A stretch of 64,000 nucleotides of DNA from Chloroflexaceae bacterium (GTDB taxonomy: Bacteria > Chloroflexota > Chloroflexia > Chloroflexales > Chloroflexaceae): NCBI GenBank assembly GCA_012031225.1, contig JAAUTZ010000009.1:1-64000 (forward strand), given 5' to 3'. Below, piece by piece: positions 24,296 through 50,026 of this stretch. The notes beneath the pieces are model-generated. The model did no database searches. It had not been told where the DNA came from and was given only the letters and a program-made list of their open reading frames with translations. Each line of letters starts with the position of its first letter. The stretch's first letter is position 1. The position numbers were made by a program, and so were the translations under genes.

Positions 24296-24411
24296 CCCCT
24301 CATCTTCCAGATATGATCTGTCGAAATTGGCACCTTCCGGCGATACGCTCACGTATCTGCGGGGTTGCCGAGGTTTCATCGGGTCGGTCCCTCCACCTCT
24401 CTGGATAAGAG
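24296..24411 (-). promoter_or_regulatory. SAM-I (S-box) riboswitch aptamer
   Basis: Read on the minus strand the leader contains CTTATCCAGAGAGGTGGAGG, then GACCGACCCGATGAAACC, CGGCAACC and AAGGTGCCAATTTC, all in the order of the SAM-I consensus. The helix P1 is closed by CTCTTATC with GATGAGGG. Binding of S-adenosylmethionine stabilises P1, freeing the downstream terminator and stopping metY-metX transcription. Confidence 0.95.
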
Positions 24412-47415: not shown

Positions 47416-47601
47416 ATGCGTAAGGATTACTTTGAACAGCTTCATCGGGAAGAACAACGACGGCATGAATGGTATGTCCTCGATATGGCTCTGTACACAG
47501 CCCACCCACGCGGCCCTGCCCCTATGCGTGCGATCCGTGCCACGCTCGGCCAGTGGTTGATCCAAGCAGGGACTGCACTGGCGGGTAAGCCAGCGGTCTA
47601 A
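47416..47601 (+). CDS. 61-residue protein of unknown function, candidate MocR target
   Basis: GAAGGAG lies six bases before the ATG, and the promoter TTGCAA-17-TATCAT is 70 bases upstream. The product starts MRKDYFEQLHREEQRRHEWY, a charged helix, and continues with a Pro-rich turn and a hydrophobic helix, LGQWLIQAGTALAG. I do not recognise it. Its only regulator-like neighbour is the divergent MocR gene, and the shared operators suggest it is the target. A strong hairpin follows the stop. Confidence 0.7.
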   Translation: MRKDYFEQLHREEQRRHEWYVLDMALYTAHPRGPAPMRAIRATLGQWLIQAGTALAGKPAV

Positions 47602-47644
47602 CATTGAGCGTTATTGAGCGTTGATGCTAGGCGCGGATGCGCGA

Positions 47645-47704: not shown

Positions 47705-47733
47705 TTGACAACATTTCAAAAGCTGTGTATAGT
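47705..47733 (+). promoter_or_regulatory. Strong promoter of the micro-ORF unit
   Basis: TTGACA (47705-47710) and TATAGT (47728-47733) are spaced by 17 bases, the closest consensus match in the window. Transcription would start near 47740, about 48 bases before the ATG. Confidence 0.8.
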
Positions 47734-47787
47734 TTTAATACAAAATCAAATTCGACCTGCCGTCTAGGCACGAAGGAGGTGATGCCC

Positions 47788-47835
47788 ATGAGTGACAATC
47801 AGCGTATGGGCATTGCCACCGGAGCAAGCAACTAA
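47788..47835 (+). CDS. 15-residue peptide gene with near-perfect Shine-Dalgarno
   Basis: AAGGAGGTGAT, an 11-base match to the 16S rRNA 3' end, lies at 47773-47783, and the ATG at 47788 is eight bases after AGGAGG. The peptide is MSDNQRMGIATGASN; an in-frame ATG at 47782 inside the ribosome site would add Met-Pro. A strong promoter and a 13-bp terminator flank it, so the transcript would be about 160 bases. The peptide has no signal sequence, no Cys and little hydrophobicity. It could be a secreted-signal precursor, a leader peptide, or a decoy on a regulatory RNA; I do not recognise it. Confidence 0.6.
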   Translation: MSDNQRMGIATGASN

Positions 47836-47864
47836 GGCTCTGGTAGCAATGTCCTTTACCAATA

Positions 47865-47900
47865 GAAACGCTGGCCCTGCGGGGTCGGCGTTTCGCTTTG
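47865..47900 (+). terminator. Strong intrinsic terminator after the micro-ORF
   Basis: GAAACGCTGGCCC (47865-47877) pairs along all 13 bases, with two G-U pairs, with GGGTCGGCGTTTC (47882-47894) around TGCG, followed by GCTTTGCTT. Confidence 0.8.
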
Positions 47901-47970
47901 CTTAGGTGCTCTTGGTGTTACTGGGTGCGATGATGGTGCGCTGCGGGGCGGGGCTTGCCTGTCGTTACGG

Positions 47971-49878
47971 TTACGCCGCTAGCTCTTCCCAATCAGCGTA
48001 GCGTTGTGCGAGCAGGGTCTCCAGTTCGGTGTAGCGCGTACCGAGCGCGGCGATCCGGGCGACATCTTGGGCGGTGCTGGCTTGCTCTAGCTCGTGCTGC
48101 ACCTGTGCCAATTGCTGCTCCAGTGCGGCGACTTCGGCTTCGAGCGCGGCAAGGCGTTTGCGGCGTTGCCGTTCGGCGGCATCGGGCTTGGCGGGCGGGC
48201 TAGCTGGGCTGGCTTTGCCACGCGGCACAGTGGCTGGTTCGGGCAGGGTCTGCTGCTGTTCGAGATGGGCGCGGTAGTCGCTGTAGTTGCCCAAGAATTG
48301 GCGCATCCGCCCATCCTGTACGATCCACAACTTATCTGCTAGGGCATCAATGAAATAGCGGTCGTGCGAAACAAAGAGCAAGCTGCCCGGATATTGCTTG
48401 AGCATGCCTTCCAGTGCTTCGCGGGCTTGGATGTCGAGGTGGTTGGTCGGCTCATCCATAATCAGCAGATTGCCCGGCATCTGGGTCAGTTGGGCGAGGG
48501 CAACCCGGCTGCGCTGGCCCCCGCTCAATTGATTGATGCGCTTGAACACGTCATCGCCACTGAAGAGGAAATTGCCGAGCAGGGTACGGGCCCGCTCCAC
48601 GCCAAGCTGCGGATTGACCCGTAGCACCTCATCCAGCACCGTCGCATCCATCTGGAGCATGTCGTGCCCCTGCGCGTAGTAGCTCACGAGAACATTGTGC
48701 CCCAAACGGAAGCTGCCTTTGAGTGGGCGTTGGGTGCCGAGCAGGGTGCGGAGCAGGGACGTTTTGCCGCAGCCATTCGGGCCGAGCAGGGCTACCCGCT
48801 CGCCGCGCAGCAGTTCGCGCTCGCCCGTTTGCAGCAGGATGCGCGGAGTCGGCTGATCCGGCTCGGCGTAGCCCACCACTAGATTGGTACATTCCAGCAC
48901 GAGATCGCCACTGCGGAGCTTGCTATCCAGAAAGAGGCGCAACTGTTCGGGTTGTTCGGGGCGGGCAATCAACTGCGTCTCTTTGAGGCGGTTCAAGCGT
49001 TTCTCGCGCCCGCGGGCCTCTTTGCTGCGCTGGCCCGCCTTGTAGCGGCGGATAAACTCCTCCGTGCGGGCGATCTGTTCTTGTTGCTGCGCATATTCTT
49101 TCATGCGCCGTTCGAGCCGCTCGGCTTTCAGTTCGAGGTAGCCTATGTAACTGGCGGGGTAATCTTCGAGGGTGCGATTGACAATCTCGATGGTGCGTTG
49201 GGTGACTTTCTCAAGGAAGTAGCGATCATGCGATACAACGATCAATGTGCCGTGCCATTCGCGCAGAAATTGCTCAAGCCACTCCAGCGTCTCTAAGTCA
49301 AGGTGGTTGGTTGGTTCATCCAGCAGCAGCAGATCGGGATCAGCAAGTAGCGTCGCCGCGAGGCCGGCGCGGGTCTTTTGCCCGCCACTGAATTGGTCAA
49401 GCGGCTGGTGGTAGTGGACGGGGTGGAACGCCAAGCCCTCCAAAATTCGCTCAATGCGCTGCTCTTTGTGGTAGCCGCCGGCATGCTCAAAGCGGTGCTG
49501 CAACTCGCCGTAGTGTTCCATCGTGGCTTCCCAATCGGGTGCGTTGGGATCGGCAAGGCGGGCTTCAAGCTGTTCCATCGCGGCTTGCAGGTGGGCAAGG
49601 TCAGCCAGTGCGGTCTCCATCGCCTGCCAGAGCGTCTGTCCGGCGGGGAAGGTGACTTCTTGGCTGAGGTAGGCGAGGCGTGTGCCGCGGGCCAGTTGCA
49701 CGGTGCCGCTATCGGGGTGGTGGATGCCCGCAATGATTTTGAGCAGGGTGCTTTTGCCCGCGCCATTGGGCCCGACAATCGCCACCTTTTCGCCCGCCAC
49801 CACCTGAAAGGTGAGGTTGGCGAAGATCAGCTCTGCGCCGAAGTATTTGGTTAGGTCTGCAATCGTTACCAGAATCAT
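47971..49878 (-). CDS. ABC-F family ATPase (ribosome-associated type)
   Basis: Two ABC domains lie in one chain without membrane segments: Walker A GPNGAGKST in the first and GPNGCGKTS in the second, signatures QFSGGQKTR and QLSGGQRSR, Walker B LLLLDEPTNHLD and LLIMDEPTNHLD. The linker between them is the charged P-site-tRNA-interaction motif region (AERLERRMKEYAQQ). The last 60 residues form a coiled coil (LAALEAEVAALEQQLAQVQHEL), as in Uup. ABC-F proteins act on stalled ribosomes; some give antibiotic resistance, which cannot be judged here. The ATG at 49878 begins MILVTIADLTKYFG and has no clear ribosome site. Confidence 0.93.
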   Translation of the reverse strand: MILVTIADLTKYFGAELIFANLTFQVVAGEKVAIVGPNGAGKSTLLKIIAGIHHPDSGTVQLARGTRLAYLSQEVTFPAGQTLWQAMETALADLAHLQAAMEQLEARLADPNAPDWEATMEHYGELQHRFEHAGGYHKEQRIERILEGLAFHPVHYHQPLDQFSGGQKTRAGLAATLLADPDLLLLDEPTNHLDLETLEWLEQFLREWHGTLIVVSHDRYFLEKVTQRTIEIVNRTLEDYPASYIGYLELKAERLERRMKEYAQQQEQIARTEEFIRRYKAGQRSKEARGREKRLNRLKETQLIARPEQPEQLRLFLDSKLRSGDLVLECTNLVVGYAEPDQPTPRILLQTGERELLRGERVALLGPNGCGKTSLLRTLLGTQRPLKGSFRLGHNVLVSYYAQGHDMLQMDATVLDEVLRVNPQLGVERARTLLGNFLFSGDDVFKRINQLSGGQRSRVALAQLTQMPGNLLIMDEPTNHLDIQAREALEGMLKQYPGSLLFVSHDRYFIDALADKLWIVQDGRMRQFLGNYSDYRAHLEQQQTLPEPATVPRGKASPASPPAKPDAAERQRRKRLAALEAEVAALEQQLAQVQHELEQASTAQDVARIAALGTRYTELETLLAQRYADWEELAA

Positions 49879-49909
49879 GGTGGTTGTCGTCGTTTCGTCG
49901 TATGCGCGG

Positions 49910-49934
49910 ATTTTATCACGGCTATAGCATACCA
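49910..49934 (-). promoter_or_regulatory. Candidate extended -10 elements for the ABC-F gene
   Basis: Two overlapping candidates occur on the minus strand, TGGTATGCT (49934-49926) and TGATAAAAT (49918-49910), 30-50 bases before the start codon. Confidence 0.35.
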
Positions 49935-49997
49935 CATACGCCGCGCTTGCGTCATGCTGAAATGAACCTGCGCTGTCGGCCCCCTGTCTGCTTTGCC

Positions 49998-50026
49998 TCG
50001 ACACTGTAGGCATTCTTTGTTACAAT
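49998..50026 (+). promoter_or_regulatory. Promoter for mrp
   Basis: TCGACA (49998-50003) is 17 bases from TACAAT (50021-50026), which is preceded by TGT as an extended -10. A second TGATACAAT at 50081-50089 could be an additional start. Confidence 0.6.

Follow-up and report, generated by a model that had tools for sequence, protein, structure and literature searches.

The closest described mechanism to the one proposed here is that of aapA3, a type I toxin mRNA of Helicobacter pylori, which has metastable hairpins that hide the Shine-Dalgarno sequence (SD), one of them by means of an anti-SD within the short frame, and for which co-transcriptional control of translation has been proposed (PMC6733600). 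The Chloroflexota RNA described here resembles it in its competing SD-hiding hairpins and its in-frame anti-SD. It differs in that its peptide is not hydrophobic, an antisense RNA promoter was not seen opposite the frame, and the fold that would free the SD uses a segment located after the stop codon.

The Downstream-peptide motif, or yfr6, of cyanobacteria is likewise a structured RNA with a short conserved frame of an otherwise unknown family, showing codon-sized insertions and deletions; it is a riboswitch-candidate motif located in a 5′ UTR, with synonymous changes reported (PMC2864571). In the Chloroflexota RNA, by contrast, the structure spans the frame and passes beyond it, with neither a recognised aptamer nor an excess of synonymous changes.

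Dual-function small RNAs are usually of narrow range and base-pair with targets. Those of the SgrS/SgrT, SR1 and RyhB/RyhP type are likewise small independent transcripts with their own promoter, terminator and short translated frame (PMC5521070, PMC5331693). The Chloroflexota RNA is unlike them in being phylum-wide and in possessing a putative built-in switch over its SD; comparison across genomes supports an independent small transcript whose short frame is kept, as in that group. In translational riboswitches, the output usually goes through pairing among SD, anti-SD and anti-anti-SD. This pairing is also present here and follows the same three-segment logic as their expression platform, but with the anti-SD downstream within the frame and the anti-anti-SD after the stop codon, and with no larger gene controlled. 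No known aptamer was matched in Rfam scans of the window (the whole 64,000-nucleotide stretch of Chloroflexaceae DNA that was analysed) and of the loci of 20 relatives, only a small 5′ hairpin being present.

Comparison with relatives indicates that the window RNA represents a new RNA family, which is conserved in Chloroflexota and has a putative switch over its mini-frame. The reading that we favour, with moderate confidence, is that the gene is autonomous and makes a small mRNA, plausibly one with a dual function, and that a fold-back SD/anti-SD/anti-anti-SD switch gates its translation. The unit, both helices, the frame, the position of its stop codon and the distribution are well supported by comparison; the transcription, the switching, the self-closing, the trigger and the role we infer.

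Organization of the RNA gene

The gene has a length of approximately 150 nt with its own start and stop signals, and the following features were identified in the window.

47705-47733 (+): sigma-70-type promoter TTGACA-17-TATAGT, score 11/12 (TTGACA 47705-47710, 17 nt, TATAGT 47728-47733)
47758-47770 (+): 5′ hairpin TGCC-GTCTA-GGCA, directly upstream of the SD, its CCG..AGG core kept in the class
47773-47783 (+): extended SD AAGGAGGTGAT, an 11-nt match, near-invariant across the phylum, complementary to almost all of the free 16S 3′ tail
47778-47789 (+): segment 1 (GGTGATGCCCAT), the 5′ strand of helix A, overlapping part of the SD and the start codon
47788-47835 (+): 15-codon frame MSDNQRMGIATGASN, with ATG at 47788 and TAA at 47833-47835
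47806-47817 (+): segment 2 (ATGGGCATTGCC), the anti-SD within the frame, serving as 3′ strand of helix A and, with its last 10 nt, as 5′ strand of helix B
47818-47844 (+): inner stem of helix B, ACCGGAGC (47818-47825) with GCTCTGGT (47837-47844), the stop codon in its loop
47845-47854 (+): segment 3 (AGCAATGTCC), the anti-anti-SD and 3′ strand of helix B, pairing with segment 2
47865-47902 (+): intrinsic terminator, a 13-pair stem (47865-47894) followed by a T-rich tail

An alignment of 20 loci shows a common order of TTGACA and TATA boxes, GCC/GGC hairpin, the block AAGGAGGTGATGCCCATGA, short frame and terminator, with the two promoter boxes of the window RNA aligned in its relatives. A promoter score of at least 9/12 was found upstream in 73 of 100 members, compared to 5.5% of shuffles. 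The three modelled pairs of the 5′ hairpin are formed in 94% of cells, each with a two-sided change, and the terminator stem is paired in 98% of cells among 93 members. The 16S tail GGATCACCTCCTTT is present in four relatives from the class; in the draft assembly of the window's own genome, no 16S gene was detected. Taken between its predicted start site and its terminator, the RNA has a more stable fold than all 200 dinucleotide shuffles (z -6.1).

The initial annotation had described the promoter, the 11-nt SD match, the 15-codon frame and the terminator as a compact, complete transcription unit unlikely to have arisen by chance. All four are indeed present as one autonomous unit, which is conserved as a whole in relatives, and its retention there places it far beyond chance. 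The refuting case named in the initial annotation, with relatives keeping the structure and losing the frame, did not arise, as both are kept. What the comparison adds to that account are two competing helices, the 5′ hairpin, a phylum-wide distribution and a putative switch over the SD and frame.

Distribution of the RNA

With blastn against 60 relatives, a conserved core (approximately 47758-47817) was identified in most genomes of the family and in several of the order. A covariance model (R1) matched in 136 of the 158 genomes of the window's class, including 89 of the 93 high-quality ones, nearly always with one copy per genome. The second-round model (R2), built from 93 members, has matches in 176 of a phylum-wide set of 400 Chloroflexota genomes, and named records carrying the RNA include Roseiflexus, Kouleothrix, Herpetosiphonaceae, Chloroheliaceae, Ardenticatenaceae, Caldilineaceae and Sphaerobacter. 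Three genomes (G045, G069, G043) each have two copies encoding different peptides (L018/L075, L071/L072 and L062/L063, respectively).

A pattern scan of 84,980 genomes returned 20 Chloroflexota loci and three others. Spread beyond the phylum was considered for loci in Ectobacillus (L136), Coprenecus (L139) and Acidaminococcus (L140) and rejected, these being devoid of the architecture and giving no R1 match.

Rfam 15 gave no match at the window element (best 16.3 bits for rnk_pseudo, gathering score 55) or at the loci of 20 relatives, and the same applies to the Rfam model of the Chloroflexi-1 RNA (RF01698, PMC2864571). No description of the RNA was found in the literature within search coverage, which excludes subscription journals. 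A single-copy gene found in nearly all high-quality genomes of a class, recognisable across a phylum and with no Rfam entry, is likely to be important to these bacteria.

Two competing helices

In helix A, segment 1 (GGTGATGCCC) pairs with the in-frame segment 2 (GGGCATCACC and variants), while in helix B segment 2 pairs with segment 3, past the stop codon. By comparison both helices are conserved. For the B-plus-terminator structure, 92.4% of cells are paired among 93 sequences and the covariation score is 0.625, where shuffles give 0.206 and slid pairings no more than 0.172, although this alignment was fitted to that structure and its counts therefore lean towards it; an unfitted MAFFT alignment of 20 sequences agrees. 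Helix B covaries strongly, with two-sided changes in all 10 of its pairs.

Helix A is paired in 92.5% of cells and has 11 two-sided cells compared to 1.8 in shuffles, while its number of pairs with a two-sided change was equalled by 57 of 500 shuffles. It covaries weakly, mostly through G-U changes in segment 2, because the SD, which makes up the 5′ strand, is fixed. In distant lineages it has been rewritten on both sides, to GCTA/TAGC (L068, L069) and GTGCAG/CTGCAC (L122, L126). Tested genome by genome (p ≤ 0.005), helix A was detected against shuffled frames in 73 of 93 genomes, and helix B, in an ungapped test against shuffles, in just 46 of 93.

The two states are predicted to be nearly equal in energy, the difference between A and B having a median of -0.6 kcal/mol (interquartile range -4.5 to +2.9, n = 71). 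In the window genome, A is predicted to be more stable than B by 5.5 kcal/mol and thus the RNA there may be mostly closed.

Outside the class, helix B is rebuilt from unrelated sequence (e.g., GCGCTGCGGC/GCCGCAGCGC) and its strands still flank the stop codon in most of these members. The anti-SD of Anaerolineae-type members falls mostly within the loop of B, so that the overlap of the two helices is only partial and both could be present at once, as a pseudoknot.

The short frame and its peptide

The frame is 13-17 codons long in 93 of 98 members, although these are related and neither this nor the following counts represent independent events. Where segment 2 is clear, it lies 17, 20 or 23 nt from the ATG (80 of 83 members); in several lineages the start codon is 3-4 nt further from segment 1 and the distance to segment 2 is still 20. 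A further 8 codons lead from segment 2 to the end of the frame in 65 of 80, the stop codon has its first base 16 nt past segment 2 in 58 of 71 members, with segment 3 starting a median of 14 nt after it. TGA stops are avoided (4/83 against 260/545 in the background). With start, length and stop position kept in this manner, the short frame proposed initially is, by comparison, genuine. In three members the usual stop has been lost (L008, L020, L117), with two of the frames extending by 6-9 codons and one running through the terminator.

Across the class, the peptide follows the pattern M-S-[SD]...G-[IV]-[TA]-x-E-[VA], with variable loop residues. Retention of frame, start and stop in nearly all members, insertions and deletions of whole codons and this class-wide pattern could indicate that a functional cytoplasmic peptide of 13-17 residues is the product, with the RNA structure merely setting its dose. 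Pairing of segment 2, however, imposes the G-[IV]-[TA] core, and in members outside the class the anti-SD often falls in a different reading frame, giving A-S-P in place of G-I/V-T/A. Third positions of the loop codons are no freer than the first and second (mean entropies 1.11, 1.17 and 1.02), and loop serine is encoded by AGT in 121 of 133 codons (91%) compared to 917 of 9653 (9.5%) in flanking frames, a constraint on nucleotides or codons and not on the residue. We regard such a micropeptide as rather unlikely to be the product. For the signalling peptide suggested initially, support is weak, given the variation of loop residues and the lack of any greater freedom at third positions. The drift of the peptide and the reading of the anti-SD in another frame outside the class make the act of translation look more conserved than the peptide.

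The likeness to aapA3, in which an in-frame anti-SD and competing SD-hiding hairpins have been described (PMC6733600), also brings into consideration a type I toxin mRNA of the hok or aapA kind with metastable SD-hiding hairpins. Yet the peptides have a median GRAVY of -0.1, with a 9-residue stretch above 1.6 in only 4 of 98, antisense promoters opposite the frame are not enriched (7/100 compared to 10.6% of shuffles) and the RNA is near-universal in the class. On hydropathy and the lack of antisense promoter enrichment, this explanation was rejected as highly improbable.

Proposed switch mechanism

Returning to the favoured reading of a gated small mRNA, the in-frame anti-SD would, in state A, sequester the SD together with the start codon by pairing and so block ribosome loading; in state B the segment beyond the stop codon would capture the anti-SD, thereby freeing the SD. 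State A would presumably form first during transcription. Once segment 3 has been transcribed, the RNAs would be split between the two states, and those in state B would load a ribosome, which would read the 13-17 codons. A terminating bacterial ribosome covers approximately 15 nt on either side of its P site and, with the measured position of the stop codon, this footprint would therefore place it between segments 2 and 3.

In the Chloroflexia-type members, segment 2 would then emerge behind the terminating ribosome, whereby A could re-form and the message close, while the ribosome itself would hinder helix B. The outcome would be limited translation, potentially reporting initiation capacity (free 30S) or another trigger. 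If this is true, the stop codon is positioned for the terminating ribosome to come to rest between the very strands that decide which state the RNA adopts next.

As stated, the self-closing model does not extend to the Anaerolineae-type members, because their anti-SD is mostly in the loop of B. The common denominator of both types is only the in-frame anti-SD hiding the SD and the closing of B around the stop codon. That the conserved function is being translated, and not a given peptide, with the RNA acting as a phylum-wide, nearly universal, self-closing and ribosome-sized switch that senses or buffers initiation capacity, is a tentative proposal to which we attach a fairly low likelihood.

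The same features may be viewed as a trans-acting sponge or sensor of 30S subunits or ribosomes, in which a ribosome loaded through the extended SD would be slow to terminate or would be retained between the B strands. A near-invariant SD complementary to almost the whole free 16S tail fits this, as it also fits the ribosome-titrating small RNA put forward in the initial annotation, and so do B strands bordering, on either side, a ribosome halted at the stop codon, the preference for TAG and TAA stops and the lack of a conserved downstream target gene. Titration from one chromosomal copy would nevertheless demand very high expression, the SD is hidden in state A, and the architecture is without known precedent; such a sponge is therefore considered unlikely.

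The RNA also represents a compact natural system of approximately 150 nt in which the SD, anti-SD, 15-codon frame and anti-anti-SD can be mutated separately and which may serve for studying the interplay of translation and folding.

Genomic context

Of 91 loci, 48 have their closest downstream ORF on the opposite strand and 43 on the same one, and the next gene differs by lineage, which speaks against the leader peptide suggested initially. A cis-acting leader or riboswitch for a downstream gene would agree with the terminator that follows and with the SD/anti-SD/anti-anti-SD module of the RNA. This is, however, very improbable given these variable and often oppositely oriented neighbours, a terminator stem which in the consensus is separate from B and does not compete with it, and the absence of an Rfam aptamer match in the window and at the loci of 20 relatives. 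An attenuator leader was likewise rejected because of the variable downstream genes, and competition of a terminator strand with an antiterminator is not seen in the consensus.

Directly upstream of the RNA promoter, a gene for a LysM-domain lipoprotein ends in 24 of the 92 loci with enough upstream sequence (examples being L012, L051, L066 and L092). A functional tie to this gene was considered and dismissed, as it is absent at the other loci including the window, and the arrangement was taken as inherited gene order. In family f33, outside the class (L119, L122, L126), the RNA lies near the tmRNA gene, and the frame that starts 44 nt downstream of the RNA in L119 is smpB-like on visual inspection. 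This vicinity possibly reflects a connection with ribosome rescue or else an inherited order of genes.

In the window, a possible 61-codon gene (MRKDYFEQLHREEQ...) with no Pfam family sits just upstream of the RNA (47417-47602, +), and a gene for an ABC-F-like duplicated ATPase with ABC_tran, ABC_tran_Xtn and ABC_tran_CTD domains (47971-50013, -) is convergent with it. The window also has a SAM riboswitch (RF00162, 87.3 bits) at 24297-24411 on the minus strand.
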